From: Actinopolyspora saharensis
GTDB lineage: Bacteria; Actinomycetota; Actinomycetes; Mycobacteriales; Pseudonocardiaceae
Direction of reading: 5' to 3'
Assembly: GCF_900100925.1 (NCBI RefSeq)
Contig: NZ_FNKO01000002.1
Span: 1,674,001 to 1,738,000, forward strand
DNA: 64,000 nucleotides
Positions 51,376-60,385 of the stretch are shown here, one piece after another. The translations under genes and the position numbers were made by a program. The notes beneath the pieces were generated by a model. It was not told the DNA's origin, did not search any database, and was given only the letters and a program-made list of their open reading frames with translations. Every line of letters starts with the position of its first letter. Position 1 is the first letter of the stretch.

Positions 51376-51736
51376 GAGGTGAGCACTCCCGTCGTAGCCG
51401 TCGTTGCTCGTTCGCACCTGGGACGCGGCGCGCCGGCGCGCGGTTCCCGAGGCGTGCTCGGGCGGAGGGCTGCTCCGTGCGGCGGCTCGGCCGCGGGGCC
51501 GGGTGGACTTGCCCGGGGCAGTCTCTTCGGACTGTGACGTGCCGCCCCCTGTACTACTATCGCCAAGGGCCTTAAGTATAGGCTAACCTTACCCGCGGAT
51601 CGGGTCGGCAGGACTCGATCGGGTGGTTCGTCCGGTTGTTCGGTCGTGCCGCGGCGCGAGGGTCCGCGGAGCGGGCCCTCGCGACAACCGGACCGCGAAT
51701 CTTCGCAAGCCCGCTCGTGCGAGAAGGGGAGAGCCC
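51376..51736. other. Divergent region with iron box
   Basis: 361 bp between the DUF6802-like gene and the siderophore reductase. It holds the iron box at 51573-51591; no reading frame of note. Confidence 0.5.
51573..51591 (+). promoter_or_regulatory. IdeR/DtxR iron box
   Basis: TAAGTATAGGCTAACCTTA matches the 19-bp IdeR/DtxR consensus TTAGGTTAGGCTAACCTAA at 15 positions, including the whole central AGGCTAACCT. It is the most AT-rich patch nearby and lies 145 nt before the reductase start. Iron-bound regulator should repress the gene when iron is plentiful. Confidence 0.8.
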
Positions 51737-52723
51737 ATGACCGCTGCGCTCGAACACACGGCTCGTCGTAACGAGCAGAAACCCGAGTACCGGGTTTACA
51801 CCGTTGAGGTGGTCGCTCGAAAGCGGTTGAGCCCGAGCTTCGTGCGCGTGACGGTGGCGGGCGAGTGCCTGCGCTCCTTCGGCGCGGGCGGGGCCGACCA
51901 GCGCATCAAGCTGATGCTGCCCCAGCCGGGGCGGACCGTCGCCGATGTTCCGCAGGGGCGGGACTGGTACGCCGAGTGGCAGGCGATGCCGGAGGAGACG
52001 CGGCCCACGATGCGGACCTACACGGTGCGCGCCTTCCGGCCGTCCCGGGCGGAGATCGACATCGACTTCGTGCTGCACGGATCCGAAGTGGACTCGGGAG
52101 GTCCCGCGTCCAACTGGGCAGCTTCCACCCGGCCGGGGGATCGAGTGGCGCTGCTCGGGCCGGACCGCCCCGGAACCGGGCGCATGTGGGGGTGCGAGTG
52201 GTGCCCGCCCGCCACGGCCCGGCGGCTGCTGCTGGCCGGGGACGAGACCGCCATTCCCGCGGTGGGGGCCATCCTCGAGTCGCTGCCCGCGAGCGCTTGC
52301 GGCATCGCCTGCCTGGAGATCCCGACCGAGGACGACGTCCAGGAGTGGGAGGTCCCGAGCGGGATGGAGGTCCGGTGGCTGCCGAGGAAGGTGGGGACCG
52401 TGCGGCAGCACCACGGTTCGCTGCTGGAGGGCGCCCTGTCCGAGGCGTTGCGGGAGCTGTGCGGCGGGAACGCGGAGCCGGAGCAGCTCACATCGTCCCC
52501 TTCCGCGTCCCTGGAGGACGTGGACGTGGACAGCTGCCCGCTCTGGGAGGTCCCGGAGGCTCCCGCCCGGGAGCGCGTCGACGTGGAAAGCGGGGAGCTC
52601 TACGGCTGGCTCGCCGGTGAGGCCGGGGTGATCAAGCGCCTGCGCAGGATGACGGTCAACCAGTACGGGGTTCCGCGCACCTCGGTGGCCTTCATGGGGT
52701 ACTGGCGCGAGGGCCGTCACTGA
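51737..52723 (+). CDS. Siderophore-interacting protein (FAD-binding ferric reductase)
   Basis: This 328-residue ViuB/SIP-family flavoprotein should reduce ferric siderophore inside the cell to release iron. The N-terminal FAD-binding domain includes SPSFVRVTVAGECLRSF and RTYTVRAFRPSRAEIDIDFVLHG (residues 95-115 hold the RxYT flavin motif). GPASNWAASTRPGDRVALLGP, LLLAGDETAIPAVGAILESL and the C-terminal SIP domain (GELYGWLAGEAGVIKRLRR) follow. It lies behind an iron box and near the des operon. AAGGGGAG precedes ATG 51737. Confidence 0.92.
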   Translation: MTAALEHTARRNEQKPEYRVYTVEVVARKRLSPSFVRVTVAGECLRSFGAGGADQRIKLMLPQPGRTVADVPQGRDWYAEWQAMPEETRPTMRTYTVRAFRPSRAEIDIDFVLHGSEVDSGGPASNWAASTRPGDRVALLGPDRPGTGRMWGCEWCPPATARRLLLAGDETAIPAVGAILESLPASACGIACLEIPTEDDVQEWEVPSGMEVRWLPRKVGTVRQHHGSLLEGALSEALRELCGGNAEPEQLTSSPSASLEDVDVDSCPLWEVPEAPARERVDVESGELYGWLAGEAGVIKRLRRMTVNQYGVPRTSVAFMGYWREGRH

Positions 52724-52765
52724 CGGGTCGGTTCGCGCGCCGCGGTGCGCGTGCGGAGTCCGGTC

Positions 52766-53872
52766 TCACGCGGCCACCGACCACCGGTGCGGTCCGGTCG
52801 GGGTGTCGAGCCGGACCGCGTGCGTCCCGTCCGGGGACACGGTCAGTTCGTACTGCTGCGGTGTCGGTTTCCCCGCGGACAGCCACCAGCGGTGGGCGGT
52901 GTCCACCTCGTTCCACAGGCGGCGCGGGCCGAGTTGGCGCACGGTCCACGGATGCAGGCCACGGACGAGCTCCACCCGCGCCCACGAGGTCGAGCGGGCA
53001 TCGTGCAGTTCCACGTTGCGGTGGTCGGCGTCGAGGTCCTCCACGGTGACGTAGCAGTTCGGCACGCGCAGTCCGATCGTGAAGGAGGCGTGCGCGAAGG
53101 AGATCATCTCGAACAGCTCCCGGCCGCCGCGTCGGGTCACCGTGCTGTCCGCCGCTTCGATCTCGTCTTCGCTCGGTTCGAGGAAGTCGCGGCGCTGGTC
53201 CCTGAGCCGCATGAACGCCAGATCGGTTCCACATCGGCCGGAGGCCGAGCCGTCCTCGTGCACCTCCCACCGCGTGAGCGCGTCGTCGCCGTAGTCGGTT
53301 CCCCACGGGGTGACGATCTTTCCACCGGGCCGGGTCTGCGCGATCCACGCGCGCGGGATCCGCCGGACGGAGGCGGTGCAGACCACCCGGTCGTACGGGG
53401 CTGCGGGAGGGTGCCCGGCGAGGCCGTCCCCGGTCACGACCAGCGGGGAGTAGCCTGCGCGGAGCAGGCGGATGCGGGCTCGGTCGGCGACCTCGCTGTC
53501 CACTTCGACCGACACGACGCGTCCGCGCGGGCCGACCCGCTCGGTGAGCAGGGCGGCGTTCCAGCCGGTTCCCGTGCCGATCTCCAGCACGCGGTGGCCC
53601 GCGCGCACGTCGAGCTCCTCGAGCATGGCGGCGACCAGGGACGGTTGGCTGCACGAACTGGACGGGCGCAGGCCCACCCCGTTCGGTGGTGCCCTGCCGT
53701 CGTCGACCTGGGTGACGATCGGTTCGTCCGCCTCGACCAGGGCACGCCACCCGGCTTCGTCGTCGGTGCGGGAGACGGGGGTGAATCCGTCACCAGCGGG
53801 GTTTTCCAGCCAGACCACGGACGGAACGAACCGGTCGCGCGGTACCGGGAGCCGAGCACGCGAGTGAGTCAT
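52766..53872 (-). CDS. Protein L-isoaspartate methyltransferase-like enzyme, peptide-maturation type
   Basis: This 368-residue class I methyltransferase has the PIMT motif I in MLEELDVRAGHRVLEIGTGTGWNAALL (about residues 90-116). A segment GLRPSSSCSQPSLVAAM just before it is characteristic of methyltransferases that accompany ATP-grasp peptide maturases. Later motifs include VVSVEVDSEVADRARI and PYDRVVCTASVRRIPRAW. The C-terminal 150 residues differ from housekeeping PIMT. A 40-codon gene precedes it by 14 nt, suggesting a peptide-and-modifier pair. No ATP-grasp gene is visible nearby. The start is ATG 53872. Confidence 0.75.
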   Translation of the reverse strand: MTHSRARLPVPRDRFVPSVVWLENPAGDGFTPVSRTDDEAGWRALVEADEPIVTQVDDGRAPPNGVGLRPSSSCSQPSLVAAMLEELDVRAGHRVLEIGTGTGWNAALLTERVGPRGRVVSVEVDSEVADRARIRLLRAGYSPLVVTGDGLAGHPPAAPYDRVVCTASVRRIPRAWIAQTRPGGKIVTPWGTDYGDDALTRWEVHEDGSASGRCGTDLAFMRLRDQRRDFLEPSEDEIEAADSTVTRRGGRELFEMISFAHASFTIGLRVPNCYVTVEDLDADHRNVELHDARSTSWARVELVRGLHPWTVRQLGPRRLWNEVDTAHRWWLSAGKPTPQQYELTVSPDGTHAVRLDTPTGPHRWSVAA

Positions 53873-53886
53873 CCGCCGTGCCGTCG

Positions 53887-54009
53887 CTACTTGTCCTCGT
53901 GCTTGTCCCCGTCGTCCTTGGTTTCCCAGTTCTCCCACTTGTCGGGTTGGGGAGTGCCCTGGCCGTCCCGGTCCGAGTCGCGCCTGCCCATGCTCGACCT
54001 CCACAGCAT
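53887..54009 (-). CDS. 40-residue Lys/Trp/Asp/Glu-rich peptide, candidate RiPP precursor
   Basis: The reading frame begins at ATG 54009 with an excellent GAGGAG 8 nt upstream and stops 14 nt before the methyltransferase start. The N-terminal half is basic (RSSMGRRDSDRDGQG). The C-terminal half ends in DKWENWETKDDGDKHEDK, rich in Lys, Trp, Glu, Asp and Thr, the residues joined by ester or amide bonds in graspetides or modified to aspartimide. No cleavage motif can be proved. The precursor role is inferred from size, position and composition. Confidence 0.5.
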   Translation of the reverse strand: MLWRSSMGRRDSDRDGQGTPQPDKWENWETKDDGDKHEDK

Positions 54010-54143
54010 CGGATCGATCTCCTCGAGTGCGAGGTTAGCGACCGGTGCTGCTCGCGCGGTAGATATCGACCAGGGGACGCGGAGGCGCGCGACGCGCGAG
54101 GTCCCGCCCGGTGGTGCGCCGAGCGGGACTGCGCGAAGCGGGG

Positions 54144-54347
54144 TCAGTCGTCGAGGCGCTCGCTCTTGAGCGCGTCGAGGAAGGAGCCCCACTGCGAACG
54201 TGTGAACGCGAGGGTGGGGCTGTTGTCGCCGAGTTTCGTGTCGCGTACTCCGGCAGCGGAAGGCGCAATCCCCACTTCAACGCAGGCTCCGGTGCCGTTG
54301 CTGCGGGTGGACTTGCGCCACCGCGCCTCGGTGAGATTGGGGGTCAT
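54144..54347 (-). CDS. DUF397 protein (WhiJ-system small partner)
   Basis: This 67-residue DUF397 protein has the core ARWRKSTRSNGTGACVEV near the N-terminus, then VRDTKL, LAFTRSQWGSFLDALK. DUF397 genes usually follow XRE/DUF5753 regulators in actinomycetes and act as antagonists or partners in WhiJ-type developmental switches. GAAGG just upstream supports ATG 54347, 4 nt after the regulator stop. Function is by family only. Confidence 0.86.
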   Translation of the reverse strand: MTPNLTEARWRKSTRSNGTGACVEVGIAPSAAGVRDTKLGDNSPTLAFTRSQWGSFLDALKSERLDD

Positions 54348-54351
54348 CCCG

Positions 54352-55197
54352 TCACCTTCCAGCGCCAAGCTCTTCTATGGTCTGCTTCAGCATGGATTTG
54401 GACTCGTTCAAGCCGAGTGCTTCCATCCGTAGCCGCTCGTAGACCAGGTTATATGTGTCGAGGTGGTGCGGTCGATCCAGGTAGTCCGCGCTTGTGATGT
54501 CTTCGACATACACCGTGCGCTTGTGGTTGTTGCGCAGCCGCAGGATCGTGAAGGAAGTGCCCAGCGAAGCGTGGCTACCGGCACTGAACGGCAGCACCTG
54601 CATCGCTACGTGCTGGAGTTCCGCCAAGTCGCAGAGAAGTTCCAGCTGTTCGGTCATGACCGCTGTACCGCCGATTCGGCGTTTCAACGTACCTTCGCTG
54701 AGGACGACCGACAGCTGAGGTGGAGTAGTGCTGTACAACTTCTCACGACGCTCCACGCGTCGTTTGACCAGCTGGTCGATGTCAGATGCTTTCGCTAGTA
54801 CCGAAGCCTTGGCGACCTCGCGTGCGTAGTCTTCGGTCTGTAGGAGTCCGGGGATCAGTTCCTCGGCGAATAGTAGGATCTCAGAAGCCCCGGCCTCCAT
54901 CCCGACGTAAGTTCGAGCCCAGTCGGAAACCTTGCCGTAGTTGCCTCGTCTACGGGCCTCCTTGCCGAGCTGGCGAACACGTTCCGCCGTGGCCTCGTCG
55001 GCTTCGAAGTACCCGAGGAGCACCTCGACTTCAGCCGCGCTGAGTGTGGCCGCTCCGGTCTCTACCTTGCCGACTTTGGTGGGGTACCAGCCGAGACGCT
55101 CGGCTACTTGCTCTCGATCCCTGCCGGACTGCGTGCGTAGTTGCTCCAGCTCCATACCGAGTTGGATACGGTGCATCGTTGGTTCCGAAGCGCCCAT
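54352..55197 (-). CDS. XRE-family regulator with DUF5753 domain (WhiJ-like)
   Basis: This 281-residue protein has an N-terminal XRE helix-turn-helix (residues 10-65, LEQLRTQSGRDREQVAERLGWYPTKVGKVETGAATLS) and a C-terminal DUF5753 domain (EELIPGLLQTEDYAREV, LSVVLSEGTLKRRIGG and LQHVAMQVLPFSAGSHA). WhiJ-like regulators repress development and secondary metabolism together with DUF397 proteins. Codon usage includes unusual AT-rich codons, suggesting an acquired or fast-changing region. The start is ATG 55197. Confidence 0.9.
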   Translation of the reverse strand: MGASEPTMHRIQLGMELEQLRTQSGRDREQVAERLGWYPTKVGKVETGAATLSAAEVEVLLGYFEADEATAERVRQLGKEARRRGNYGKVSDWARTYVGMEAGASEILLFAEELIPGLLQTEDYAREVAKASVLAKASDIDQLVKRRVERREKLYSTTPPQLSVVLSEGTLKRRIGGTAVMTEQLELLCDLAELQHVAMQVLPFSAGSHASLGTSFTILRLRNNHKRTVYVEDITSADYLDRPHHLDTYNLVYERLRMEALGLNESKSMLKQTIEELGAGR

Positions 55198-56034: not shown

Positions 56035-56303
56035 GCTCGCGCGCCGACCGGCAGGCGCGTTTCGTGCTGGGGTGGGACTCCGGCTGGATCCATGCCACGA
56101 GTTCCCACCTGGCCGCTGATTTCCGACACGGCTGGGTGCTGTGCCTGTGCGGCGCGTGGATCGCTCTCGCGCCGCATCCGCCCGTGCTGCTGGATTTCTC
56201 CTGGCACGGCTACTGCGGGCCGTGCCTGATGACGCGCGCCGGCATCGCTGACCTGCGCAACGATCTCAGGGAGCCGTACCCGTCGTGGCTCGTGACGAGC
56301 TGA
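56031..56303 (+). CDS. Small Cys-rich protein, overlapping gene
   Basis: This 90-residue protein starts at GTG 56031, which overlaps the previous stop by four bases. It has a CLCGAW and CGPCLMT pair of Cys motifs (CxC and CxxC, about 30 residues apart), plausible for metal binding, in a sequence rich in His and Trp. No signal peptide. Coupling to the previous gene suggests stoichiometric production, and the function is unknown. Confidence 0.6.
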   Translation: MSSRADRQARFVLGWDSGWIHATSSHLAADFRHGWVLCLCGAWIALAPHPPVLLDFSWHGYCGPCLMTRAGIADLRNDLREPYPSWLVTS

Positions 56304-56371
56304 GAGAGCGGCTCGCCACGCTCCGCGCGACGGTCGGTTCCCCGCTCAACGATCCGGACCGGAACGCATGA
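56285..56371 (+). CDS. 28-residue mini-gene in the overlapping operon
   Basis: GTG 56285 opens a 28-codon frame (VARDELRERLATLRATVGSP, then LNDPDRNA) that overlaps the upstream gene's end by 19 nt and its TGA overlaps the next ATG (ATGA at 56368-56371). The tight packing suggests it is translated, perhaps only to couple the two larger genes. It could equally be a chance frame. Confidence 0.4.
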   Translation: MARDELRERLATLRATVGSPLNDPDRNA

Positions 56372-56928
56372 TCACTCTGATTCTGTCCATCTTGATTGCT
56401 TTTCTCCGACGGATACGGGCCGACAGCGGTGCCGTCCGAGTCGCCCCTGGGTCCTGTGTGGATTCCTCTGCTGGCAGCGGGGTCGGAGCGGCCTGCGATG
56501 CCGCCGCTGTCACGGCGGAGATCCCGCGACCACGCGGGCTGGTGGCCGACCGAACGTGGATCGCGGGCGAGGGCGAGGCCCAGTGGCACGCCTGCGAGGT
56601 CGTGGTCGGCCTCGCTGCCACGTCCGCGCATGGTGCCTGCGGGCGCACCGTGCGCGGCTTGCGCGAGCGCAGCACCGGTTACGACCCGCCGGAGCAGCGG
56701 CACCGGTCGGTGTGCGGGCCGTGCCTGCACGCGATCGGCTACCTCCCGCCGCGCGCGGTGCTGCGCAGGCGACTCCCCCGAGTGACTGCTGCCCCCGATC
56801 CCCGGTGGCCGGGCACCGACCCGGACACCGGACAACCGGCCACGGCGACCGCGCTGCACGCGCGGGCGGAACCCGCCGGTTCCCACCCGGCCCGCACTCA
56901 CCCGGCGGAGCTCCAGCCCGCGGCGTAG
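56368..56928 (+). CDS. Membrane-anchored protein with CxxC motif
   Basis: This 186-residue protein has a short hydrophobic N-terminus (MITLILSILIAFLRR), then a low-complexity linker and a central domain with HACEVVVG, ACGRTV and SVCGPCLHAIGY, resembling a zinc-binding or ligand-binding pair. The C-terminal 45 residues are Pro/Ala/Thr-rich. ATG 56368 overlaps the mini-gene stop. Function is unknown. It is probably the last member of this small-gene operon. Confidence 0.6.
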   Translation: MITLILSILIAFLRRIRADSGAVRVAPGSCVDSSAGSGVGAACDAAAVTAEIPRPRGLVADRTWIAGEGEAQWHACEVVVGLAATSAHGACGRTVRGLRERSTGYDPPEQRHRSVCGPCLHAIGYLPPRAVLRRRLPRVTAAPDPRWPGTDPDTGQPATATALHARAEPAGSHPARTHPAELQPAA

Positions 56929-57097
56929 CGCTACAGACCACCCCGCCGGGCGACCTGACCAGCCCCGCGAACCCGGGAACACGTCGTGAATCTCCGACGA
57001 GCGGCGTGTACCCGTGCCCGCTCGGTCCAGCGACGTACCGGGCGGTCCTCCAGAACCCTCCGAGCTTTGTCCGAAAGGAAATAGAAGGGGATTAACG

Positions 57098-57154
57098 ATG
57101 GCCGACCGGGTTCGGTGCTGCAAAGACGTGAAAGAGGTATCCACATGGATGTAG
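57098..57154 (+). CDS. 18-codon leader reading frame overlapping the methyltransferase start
   Basis: ATG 57098, with AAGGGG 7 nt upstream, encodes MADRVRCCKDVKEVSTWM and stops at TAG 57152-57154, inside the second and third codons of the methyltransferase (ATG 57145). The overlap suggests translational coupling. It could also be a tiny substrate, since it has two adjacent Cys, a Trp and Thr, but this is unproven. Confidence 0.4.
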   Translation: MADRVRCCKDVKEVSTWM

Positions 57155-58383
57155 AACGTGACATGGCTGATGAGGGTGCTGCGGAGGACAGCGCGCAGCC
57201 CGGTGCTCTGCGTGCGGCCATGGTCGAGGAATTGCGCCAGATGGGCGCACTGCGCAGCGATCCGGTCGAGCGGGCTTTCCGGGTGGTGCCCCGGCATCTG
57301 TTCTCCCCGGAGGCACCGCTGATGGAGGCCTACGGGGTCAACCGGTCGGTGGTGGTCAAACGGGACGACGACGGGATGGCGCTGTCGACCGTCTCGGCTC
57401 CCAGTATGCAGGCCAACATGCTGGAGCAGACCGAGGTCCAGCCCGGTATGCGCGTGCTGGAGATCGGATCCGGTGGGGTCAACGCCGCGATGCTCGCCGA
57501 ACTCGTTGGCGCGGAGGGCCACGTGACCACGGTCGACATCGACGCGGACGTGACCGAGCGCGCCCGGCGCGGACTGGCCGAGTCCGGATACGACCAAGTG
57601 CGGGTGGTCTGCGCCGACGCTGAACACGGCGTGGCCGACCAAGCGCCCTACGACCGGATCCTGGTCACCGTCGGGGTGTGGGACATCCCGCCCGCCTGGT
57701 TGGATCAGCTCGTCGAGGGCGGCAGGCTGATCGTCCCTCTTCGGTTGCAGGGGGTAATGCGGTCGATCGCGCTGGAACGCGCGGACGGCCGGCTGACCAG
57801 CCGGAGCGTGCACCCGTGCGGGTTCGTGCCGGTGCAGGGTGCGGGTGCCCGCGAGGAGCACGTGGCGCTGCTCGACGCGGACGTGGGGTTGCGGTTCGAC
57901 GAGCAGCGACGTCTCAACATCGCCGGGCTCAGCGAGGCGCTGGCCACACCCCCTGAAGAGCGGTGGTCGGGAGTCACCATCGGTTCCCAGGAAATGATCG
58001 ACGACCTGACTCTGTGGTTGACGACCACGCTGCCCGGCTGCGGCATGTTGACCGCGAAACAAGCCGCCATCGATCGCGGGCTCGTGGGCCGCCCCGCCCG
58101 CCGGGGAGTTCCGGCAGCGGTTGACGGGGACAGCTTCGCCTACCGCGCCGCGGTGCGCGCCGCCGAGGACGAACGGCATGAACTCGGCGTACACGGCCAC
58201 GGCCCTCGCGGCGCCGAACTCGCCGAGCAGTACGTCGACCTGATGCGCCAGTGGGACCGGCAACACCGTCACGGCCCCGGCGCCGTCATCGAGGTCCACC
58301 CCGCCCACACCCCCGATGAGCGGGTGAATCATGGGTTCGTGCTCGACAGGAACCACACCCGTGTCGTGATCTTCTGGCCCTGA
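57145..58383 (+). CDS. FxLD-system-like SAM-dependent peptide methyltransferase
   Basis: This 412-residue PIMT-like methyltransferase has an N-terminal segment MVEELRQMGALRSDPVERAFRVVPRHLFSPEAP (the VPRHLF mark), motif I VLEIGSGGVNAAMLAELVGAEGHVTTVDID (about residues 110-140) and a long C-terminal region (residues 240-412) ending HGFVLDRNHTRVVIFWP. This layout matches what I recall of the methyltransferases of FxLD-type lanthipeptide loci. No LanB-type dehydratase or FxLD precursor is seen in the window, so it may be an orphan enzyme acting on another peptide. The start is ATG 57145. Confidence 0.72.
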   Translation: MDVERDMADEGAAEDSAQPGALRAAMVEELRQMGALRSDPVERAFRVVPRHLFSPEAPLMEAYGVNRSVVVKRDDDGMALSTVSAPSMQANMLEQTEVQPGMRVLEIGSGGVNAAMLAELVGAEGHVTTVDIDADVTERARRGLAESGYDQVRVVCADAEHGVADQAPYDRILVTVGVWDIPPAWLDQLVEGGRLIVPLRLQGVMRSIALERADGRLTSRSVHPCGFVPVQGAGAREEHVALLDADVGLRFDEQRRLNIAGLSEALATPPEERWSGVTIGSQEMIDDLTLWLTTTLPGCGMLTAKQAAIDRGLVGRPARRGVPAAVDGDSFAYRAAVRAAEDERHELGVHGHGPRGAELAEQYVDLMRQWDRQHRHGPGAVIEVHPAHTPDERVNHGFVLDRNHTRVVIFWP

Positions 58384-58579: not shown

Positions 58580-60385
58580 TCACCGCTGCACGAGCTCCGG
58601 CGCGTGGGGCGCGATCGGGTTGGACAGGGTCCCGGCGAAGGCGAGCGCGCTGCTCGGGTCCTGCAGGTCGACCATCTGCTCGTTGTCCCCGAGCTGCAGC
58701 CTGTTCAGGCAGGACAGCGAGAACCACTCGGTGAACAGGTCGTGCCGCCGGAACTTGTCCCGCAGCTCGGGGTTGTCCCGCTGGTGGTCGGCCACGCACT
58801 CGGCCACGGTCCTCCAGAAGGCCTCCTCGCTGAGCAGGCCCTCGGTGTGGGCGATCGAGCACAGGAAGCGGAAGAAGCAGTCGAACACGTCGGTGAGCAG
58901 GGACAGCTCGCGCAGGTGCTCCGGAACCACCGAGCGGATCCGCTCGACCTCGGGCGGAAGCTGCACATCGGCGTCGAGCACTGCGATCTCCTCGGCGACG
59001 TCCTTGAGCAGGGCGCCCTCGGGAACCCCGTCCTCGAGCACGAGGATGATGTTCTCGCCGTGCGGCATGGCCACCAGGTCGTGGGCGTAGAACAGGTGCA
59101 GCAGCGGCCGCAGGTAGACGTCCAGGTAGCGGCGCAGCCAGACCGCGGGCTCCAGCCCCGAGCGGGACACGAGCTCGCCGAGCACCGAGTCCCCGAAGCG
59201 GTCCACGTGCAGCAGCGCGGCCATGCTCACCAGCCGCTGCCCGGAGCGGATCTTCGGCACGGGGCTCTCCCGCCAGAGCGCGGCCAGCATCTTGCGGTAG
59301 GGGGAGCTCTTCGAGCCCGCTGCCTCGTAGTACTCGTTGTGGTAGCCGATCGCCGCCCGCTCGCGCAGGATGTCGAACCCCGAGTCGGCGAGCTGCCGAT
59401 CACGCGCGATCAGCCCGGACAGCCAGTCGTTGATGGCCGGGGTCGCCTTCATGTACTCGGCGGACAACCCGCGCAGGAACCCCATGTTGCGCACCGACAG
59501 CGCCGTTTTCACGTAGTGCTTCGACGGCGAGCTCTCGTTGAACATGGTGCGCACGGACTGCTGGGGGCGGTAGGAGTCGGAACCACGTCCGAGGTGGACG
59601 AGGTTGTTCCGCGCCACCTCGGCGGCGAAGGTCACCGAGAGCTTGTTCTCCCACTGCCACGGGTGCACCGGGAAGAGGTGGTACTCCTCCGGATCGAGCC
59701 CGCGCTCGCGCAGCCCGGCGGCGAACGCCTCCCGCTCCGCCTCGTCCAGTTCGGACGAGATCAGTTCCGCGTAGCTCGTCTCGGAGGACACGGTGAACGT
59801 GGACCGGTCGCGGTGCGCGGCCATCCAGACCAGGGAGACGGACTGCCCTGCCTCCGGCGCGTACTCGGTGAACTCGGTGCTGTCGAACCCGATGCGCCCG
59901 CTGTTGGCCACGAAGCACGGGTGCCCCTCGGTGAGCCCCGCCTCCACCGCTTGGAAACCGGCGTCGAGCAGTTCCGCCGAGCGCGTGGCGGGCATGGCCA
60001 GCTTGAACGCGCTGCTGGACAGCGTGCTGCTGATCTCCTCCAGGTAGACGGGCAGCATCTCCGTGCGCAGCCCCAGGGTCTCGCGGAACTCCAGGAACAG
60101 CGCGAGCACGTCGAGCGGTTGCTCGCTGCCCGCGGAGCGCCTGGTGATGCTGTCGGCGTCGACTCGCCAGTGCCGCAGGCTCCCGATCTCGGCGGCGAAG
60201 CGGTACTCCACCAGCCCGTCGTCGCTGCTCACCCGGTAGTGCCCCGGTGCGGTCTCCGCGGGCTCCAGCAGGCGTTCGTGGGAGAACTCGGCCAGTGCCT
60301 TGCGCACCAGTAATCGGTTGGCGGTCTCCCAGTGGTGCGGGGTCAGATGGGCCGCGACCTCGCGCGGTGCGGATGCGCTGCTCAA
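58580..60385 (-). CDS. desD: NRPS-independent siderophore synthetase, DesD-like (IucA/IucC family)
   Basis: This 601-residue NIS synthetase joins hydroxamate-amine units using ATP, as in desferrioxamine assembly. Family hallmarks include HPCFVANSGRIGFDSTE (pyrophosphate and ATP contact region, near residue 155-170), HPWQWENKL, QSVRTMFNESSPSKHYVKTALSV, the YAHDLVAMPHGENIILVLEDG block with catalytic His/Asn, and a FhuF-like C-terminal domain. TTG 60385 shares bases with the desC stop and has AGGAGG 8 nt upstream. It is last in the operon. Confidence 0.94.
   Translation of the reverse strand: MSSASAPREVAAHLTPHHWETANRLLVRKALAEFSHERLLEPAETAPGHYRVSSDDGLVEYRFAAEIGSLRHWRVDADSITRRSAGSEQPLDVLALFLEFRETLGLRTEMLPVYLEEISSTLSSSAFKLAMPATRSAELLDAGFQAVEAGLTEGHPCFVANSGRIGFDSTEFTEYAPEAGQSVSLVWMAAHRDRSTFTVSSETSYAELISSELDEAEREAFAAGLRERGLDPEEYHLFPVHPWQWENKLSVTFAAEVARNNLVHLGRGSDSYRPQQSVRTMFNESSPSKHYVKTALSVRNMGFLRGLSAEYMKATPAINDWLSGLIARDRQLADSGFDILRERAAIGYHNEYYEAAGSKSSPYRKMLAALWRESPVPKIRSGQRLVSMAALLHVDRFGDSVLGELVSRSGLEPAVWLRRYLDVYLRPLLHLFYAHDLVAMPHGENIILVLEDGVPEGALLKDVAEEIAVLDADVQLPPEVERIRSVVPEHLRELSLLTDVFDCFFRFLCSIAHTEGLLSEEAFWRTVAECVADHQRDNPELRDKFRRHDLFTEWFSLSCLNRLQLGDNEQMVDLQDPSSALAFAGTLSNPIAPHAPELVQR

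Follow-up and report, generated by a model that had tools for sequence, protein, structure and literature searches.

A probable two-gene peptide and methyltransferase unit of the imiditide (type I pamtide) kind in Actinopolyspora saharensis

Described systems and the character of the locus

In the imiditides, also called pamtides, a PIMT homologue adds a methyl group to a single Asp of the precursor, which is linear in type I and zinc-folded in type II, and the products are an aspartimide and isoAsp (PMC10787088, PMC13001092). Type I has been catalogued in 1414 units and type II in 125, and the type I precursors average 17.3% Gly, 16.8% Pro and 10.2% Asp at about 45 aa (PMC10787088). An extra C-terminal domain and a WxxxGxP motif are named as features of RiPP-associated PIMTs, and the enzymes SpaM and NmaM modify their linear precursors without a partner enzyme (PMC13001092, PMC10787088). 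Imiditides are also described as strongly positive, as a general remark rather than a rule of membership (PMC13001092).

In the window, which is the whole stretch of 64,000 nucleotides of A. saharensis DNA that was analysed, a small gene is followed on the minus strand by a gene for a PIMT-like methyltransferase (Table 1). The host is a salt-loving soil actinomycete. Very probably the pair is a RiPP system of the imiditide (type I pamtide) kind. The features that agree with type I are the two-gene unit with no other modifying enzyme seen, the extra C-terminal domain, the WxxxGxP motif and a conserved Asp. The composition does not agree: the 24-sequence precursor group (mean 37 aa, the frame-broken L086 counted) is rich in Asp (19.8%) and Gly (14.7%) but holds 4.7% Pro, the peptide of the window has a net charge of -4, and 23 of the 24 precursors are net negative, the exception being L086. 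The preliminary description had proposed an unrecognised RiPP; as the units of its branch match the published imiditides and pamtides by description, it is rather most likely a new member of a class that has been in print since 2023, under the name of pamtides in PMC10787088 and as imiditides in work cited by PMC13001092.

The pairs NmaA-NmaM of Nonomuraea maritima and SpaA-SpaM of Streptomyces sparsogenes resemble the unit of the window in being two-gene systems whose linear precursor has no obvious cyclisation motif. Moreover NmaM and SpaM, like the enzyme of the window, are PIMT homologues with the extra C-terminal domain and WxxxGxP, and their precursors have a conserved Asp next to Gly. 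Compared by published description and not by alignment, the branch of the window differs from the NmaA/SpaA type in that its precursors are net negative, shorter, poor in Pro and contain Trp. The cysimiditides or type II pamtides (FcaA-FcaM) are also near, and enzymes beside zinc-ribbon-like precursors share the branch of the window; their precursors, however, have two CxxCxGxG motifs flanking the Asp, whereas the window's peptide has neither Cys nor a zinc ribbon. The group 13 graspetides (fuscimiditide, amycolimiditide, SsfA) have a related aspartyl methyltransferase and two such clusters exist elsewhere in the genome, but they need an ATP-grasp enzyme; beside the unit of the window there is none, and in two relatives the unit occurs in a genome that lacks one. 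The acidic, Trp-containing branch looks distinctive and is not described in the text consulted of PMC10787088 and PMC13001092. A literature search with its precursor sequence motifs gave no related paper.

Table 1. Positions of the features of the two-gene unit in the window
Feature	Position	Strand	Remarks
Precursor peptide gene	53887..53991	-	34 codons + TAG; ATG 53991, stop TAG 53889-53887; MGRRDSDRDGQGTPQPDKWENWETKDDGDKHEDK
MLWRSS, the six extra codons of the 40-codon reading	53992..54009	-	Elsewhere only in A. biskrensis
GGAGG Shine-Dalgarno	53998..54002	-	6 nt before ATG 53991
Asp9-Gly10 codons, candidate methylated/aspartimide site	53962..53967	-	D9 and G10 invariant in 20/20 aligned precursors
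Asp29-Lys30-His31, candidate recognition element	53899..53907	-	[GN]-K-H motif of most wider-branch precursors
PIMT-like peptide aspartyl O-methyltransferase (putative activity, from sequence)	52766..53872	-	368 aa; start ATG 53872-53870
SSSCSQPSLVAAM, residues 71-83	53624..53662	-	S72, S73, S75, P77 and V80 invariant in 60-sequence alignment
SAM-binding EIGTGTG, residues 97-103	53564..53584	-	E97, G99, G101 and G103 invariant (60 sequences)
WLSAGKP, residues 330-336	52865..52885	-	WxxxGxP motif of RiPP-associated PIMTs (PMC13001092)

The precursor gene and the adjacent methyltransferase

The small gene was originally read as 40 codons with a very strong ribosome binding site. Such a site is present (AGGAG, 9 nt before ATG 54009), although that start is probably six codons too early. 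Since the common similarity of the relatives begins at MG[KRE].., which is the second start, and since AGGA, GGAG or a longer form stands just 5' of it in 21 of 24 sequences (AGGAGG in 12), the shorter start is preferred and the gene most likely has 34 codons rather than 40. The MLWRSS stretch would then probably be 5' leader and not coding. The reading of the C-terminal half of the peptide as packed with Thr, among other residues, was overstated, as the peptide has two Thr. The consensus of the branch, MGKRDxDRDGQGxxQPDKWENWGxKDDGNKHE, is acidic and contains Trp, and the precursors of this sub-branch are 33-43 aa long, rich in Asp, Gly, Lys and Glu, with Trp, and poor in Pro. No promoter or terminator was found in a scan of 52600-54400.

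The pattern of substitution indicates that the small gene is under selection at the protein level. In its own frame the mean pS was 0.546 against a pN of 0.120 (22 precursor sequences, 229 of 231 pairs, those that differ), and the two shifted frames reverse this relation (pS/pN 0.127/0.224 and 0.106/0.236). These 22 were drawn from the 24 collected sequences, L084 and L086 being left out. Moreover ten residues (M1, G2, D5, R8, D9, G10, G12, Q15, D27 and H31) had no exception in 20 aligned precursors. In genome G010 (L086 / L015) the frame of the small gene breaks within a run of G, after residue 24, and the remaining acidic tail sits in the next frame, which is either a real break or a sequencing error.

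The methyltransferase gene follows on the same strand after a gap of 14 nt (53873-53886), and the lead-in SSSCSQPSLVAAM is found in its product, both as first described. The predicted fold is like that of the PIMT of Thermotoga maritima including its C-terminal domain (PDB 1DL5 matches residues 1-357 of the model), and most canonical PIMTs match the model only to near residue 226. The T. maritima protein is presumably a repair enzyme and we know of no precursor gene that accompanies it. The WxxxGxP motif is present in 58 of the 72 other enzymes of the branch of the window (absent from 14) and is not specific to the imiditide/pamtide class, since 6 of 9 ATP-grasp-linked enzymes also have it. 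The enzyme, of net charge -7, falls under the cut-off of every NCBIfam family listed; its best match is the graspetide methyltransferase TIGR04188, at 312.6 bits where the cut-off is 380. Among named relatives the closest is Actinopolyspora biskrensis (91% in its best segment). In A. biskrensis (L091 / L016 / L040) the methyltransferase matches in two overlapping stretches in different open frames, so that it appears split in that record while the precursor is intact.

Pairing of the genes and their relatives

In all 25 loci (L064-L087, L091) where the match covers most of the enzyme at an identity of at least about 59%, a small gene of this type lies ahead of the methyltransferase, which is the outcome of the neighbourhood comparison that the preliminary description had proposed as a check. 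A motif search found the small gene in 23 of the 24 loci searched, L074 and L087 (diverged) were recognised outside this search, and L086 is counted in spite of its broken frame. In the 26th genome (L141, G007) there is a 93-residue piece of the methyltransferase at 60% and no small gene. Among 61 relatives the methyltransferase is matched at E < 1e-100 in 10 genomes, and it is in exactly these that the peptide is matched at E < 1e-9 (11 copies), with thresholds that were set after the lists were seen. No clear stand-alone copy of the peptide occurred in the 61 relatives, the next match (E 0.007) lying inside a 790-aa open frame. Because several of these genomes contributed to the peptide profile, its matches are partly built in, and the informative result is the absence elsewhere. 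Of the two peptide copies in genome G004, one stands before the full enzyme and the other before a match limited to residues 4-217; the second copy and the partial methyltransferase lie at G004:C4:165909-166684 (inside L082), 6 kb from the full unit.

The unit is conserved across genera and its sequence conservation is strong. Considering open frames of at least 100 aa within about 5 kb, only the methyltransferase is common to all 26 loci. XRE-type regulators are the next real neighbour family, in 12 of the 26 at varying places and on either strand, and a conserved third gene of this size was therefore rejected. No exporter or protease family was seen travelling with the unit in the neighbour comparison, in which RiPP enzymes were detectable as recurrent families of at least 100 aa, ATP-grasp enzymes being searched for directly. 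In the window a DUF397 protein and an XRE/DUF5753 regulator are directly upstream of the unit (54144-55197, minus strand), and a siderophore-interacting protein (51623-52723, plus strand) and an IucA/IucC-type siderophore synthetase (58580-60385, minus strand) flank it. A second PIMT-like methyltransferase, of the FxLD system (57115-58383, plus strand; TIGR04364, 547.5 bits, over the cut-off), is placed 3 kb away, and no FxLD-like precursor was evident upstream of it in 56100-57300.

A tree of 108 rows, from which 12 near-copies and the short L191 were omitted, has one branch (SH-aLRT 97) of 90 methyltransferases, most of them with a candidate small gene, and the type of the window forms a single 18-row clade (support 100) inside it. 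The branch includes 8 enzymes with zinc-ribbon-like (type II-like) precursors and others with Gly/Pro/Asp-rich (type I-like) ones; these labels are precursor motifs read by eye and the rows include no characterised enzyme. Outside it fall the 8 enzymes linked to an ATP-grasp, three FxLD-like enzymes from the genome itself and a group of seven for which no partner is clear. An earlier tree of 92 rows gave the same picture; the two are quick trees with no bootstrap and a midpoint root, some inner forks being open. The group of seven (L024, L029-L033, L035), which has no ATP-grasp match in the flanks searched and no clear precursor, possibly corresponds to the FHA-VWA clusters of PMC10787088.

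In a class-wide search 62 of 394 genomes had a match at E <= 1e-40, and full-length matches in the other bacterial families sampled reach about 51% identity at best. Among the 29 loci listed from these 62 genomes, none had an ATP-grasp match within 1.5 kb. Read by eye, eight of the 29 show precursors whose two Cys pairs resemble those of type II pamtides (the second pair of L194 is imperfect), 6 of these with Asp-Gly between the pairs and most beginning MGKH; 13 have Gly/Pro/Asp-rich peptides starting MGKH or similar; and the other 8 are less clear, one being without a candidate. For the wider branch, precursors were picked by a composition-score script from the 72 other rows, of which at least 11 had no convincing small gene in the scan. 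No candidate came from L021, L135, L138 and L113, and those of L122, L136, L129, L019, L104, L097 and L103 scored 0.3 or less and were dropped. With the frame-broken L015 dropped by hand, L134 swapped for a longer reading and the window added, 61 precursors were obtained.

The preliminary description had left two options, an ATP-grasp enzyme encoded elsewhere or a methyltransferase acting alone, for example to make an aspartimide. No ATP-grasp gene of the graspetide family is in the window, as it had stated, and the two that the genome holds over the family cut-off lie elsewhere, in graspetide-type pairs of ATP-grasp and methyltransferase (L130, G000:C2:1314604; L131, G000:C1:837948). Neither was there a match to this family within 5 kb in any of the 25 loci. 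An ATP-grasp over the cut-off occurs in 18 of the 61 relatives. The unit is present in G003 without any match to the family, G004 has it with a match of a 41-residue fragment only (E 7e-4), and in A. biskrensis (G001, L091) 60 residues only are matched; these three are 99% complete drafts of 20 contigs each, G003 and G004 being of the same genus. Conversely ATP-grasps occur without such a unit in G002 and G005, and in G007 with no more of it than the methyltransferase piece L141. As two same-genus drafts of such completeness hold the unit with no ATP-grasp beyond a 41-residue fragment, the methyltransferase most likely acts alone without requiring one. Of the two options it is this one that is supported, from the neighbourhoods, the co-occurrence, the tree and these two genomes. 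Inside the two-gene branch there is one enzyme (L103, G176) with an ATP-grasp match of 172 bits lying 3.75 kb upstream of it.

Candidate site, recognition and alternative readings

By analogy with the published relatives, from which we infer the chemistry of the unit, the small gene would encode a linear precursor, otherwise unmodified, and the adjacent methyltransferase (PIMT with the extra C-terminal domain) would bind it, probably via the conserved C-terminal D/N-K-H region. With SAM as donor a single Asp would be methylated, most likely Asp9 in the invariant Asp9-Gly10 pair, and methanol would be lost to give an aspartimide (net -18 Da), which would hydrolyse mainly to isoAsp. Both the Asp and the recognition element were chosen here by conservation alone. 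D9 is the best candidate for the modified site, with a chance that we put somewhat above even. Of the three invariant Asp (D5, D9 and D27), D9 has Gly after it in every case, and G12 and Q15 do not vary either. The residues after D5 are variable, and D27 is followed by G, E, Q, A or, in L066, by P, where it could not cyclise because Pro has no amide hydrogen. Asp-Gly is the context most prone to aspartimide formation. In the wider branch D-G occurs in 53 of the 61 precursors, N-G only in three and neither in five. Asn-Gly stands where others have Asp-Gly in L089, L110, L112 and L017, the last of which has D-G elsewhere too, and such precursors would keep the succinimide chemistry. At the site of the type II pamtides, TSDGK, the neighbour of the Asp is also Gly (PMC10787088).

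That the small frame is not a gene has practically no probability. The frame is short and hardly represented in protein collections: among about 5.8 billion proteins searched, the single cluster recovered was the 40-aa reading of the window itself (4 member sequences, 3 contigs), which also means that such a precursor gene is easily missed. Against this reading are the excess of pS over pN, in the frame of the small gene only, the conserved start with its Shine-Dalgarno in 21 of 24, and the stop close to the methyltransferase. A housekeeping methyltransferase for isoAsp repair, with the small gene as an unrelated neighbour, would explain the PCMT domain and the PIMT fold of the enzyme. We consider this extremely improbable in view of the co-occurrence in fixed order with a conserved, selected small gene, the extra C-terminal domain with WxxxGxP, and a patchy distribution, a match at E <= 1e-70 being present in 48 of 390 genomes of the same bacterial family. 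It is only a little less remote that the peptide is a graspetide made in trans, cross-linked by an ATP-grasp of the genome and then methylated by the enzyme of the window, as could be supposed from the best NCBIfam match and from the two ATP-grasps over the cut-off. Each of these, however, has its own methyltransferase directly after it (36% and 33% identity to that of the window, best segments), the ATP-grasp-linked enzymes fall outside the branch of the window in the tree, G003 has the unit with no family match, and G004 has two peptide copies beside its 41-residue fragment.

Another reading concerns the role of the peptide: it could be an acidic, cytoplasmic, regulated protein for which methylation and isomerisation of the Asp are a timed switch and which is never exported or cleaved. 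The want of any constant neighbour but the methyltransferase in the 26 loci, the XRE-type regulators found in 12 of them at variable place and strand, and a conservation across genera that would be unusual for an antibiotic-like core can all be cited for it. Nevertheless pamtide clusters have been published with the same want of extra genes (PMC13001092, PMC10787088), and the chemistry would be that of the imiditide-type unit, only the biological role being different. We regard this role as possible though unlikely. The role of aspartimides in imiditide-type peptides is itself still described as open (PMC13001092). The branch is small, strongly conserved across genera and has no constant third gene. 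It makes a simple two-gene pair in which one Asp is the obvious candidate.

Returning to the imiditide-type unit, the activity of the described enzymes has been tied to C-terminal residues of the precursor and an acidic loop of the enzyme, and the review's charge-charge model of recognition pairs a positive precursor with a negative enzyme loop (PMC13001092). In the unit of the window precursor (-4) and enzyme (-7) are both net negative, so the published argument from bulk charge cannot be transferred unchanged. Among the 61 precursors (chosen by script, near-copies included) 53 have [GNDEPS][KRN]H after residue 12, and in most enzymes of the window's clade the C-terminal domain holds an acidic stretch, EDLDADH in the window. 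Our guess is that the K-H tail of the precursor meets this acidic stretch. A further speculation, which we hold to be doubtful, is that the acidic KWENW branch is a separate imiditide kind, in which there would be no docking of a positive precursor on a negative loop, a single Asp9-Gly10 on the N-terminal side would be modified, the D/N-K-H tail would serve as handle, and the product would be an intracellular, self-timed aspartimide switch that is not secreted. In any case the reversed charge of the branch can be used to test how general the published electrostatic model is. The order of the two motifs is the reverse of that of the window in the precursors of L124, L127, L134, L140 and L027, which have K-H or R-H first and then D-(I/L)-(D/N)-P-x-x-(Y/W/F). 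The enzymes of the first four form one clade (support 97 in the 92-row tree and 96 in the 108-row tree) and L027 was joined to them by its precursor only; the first motif reads D-H in L140 and is the only one of the two in L027.
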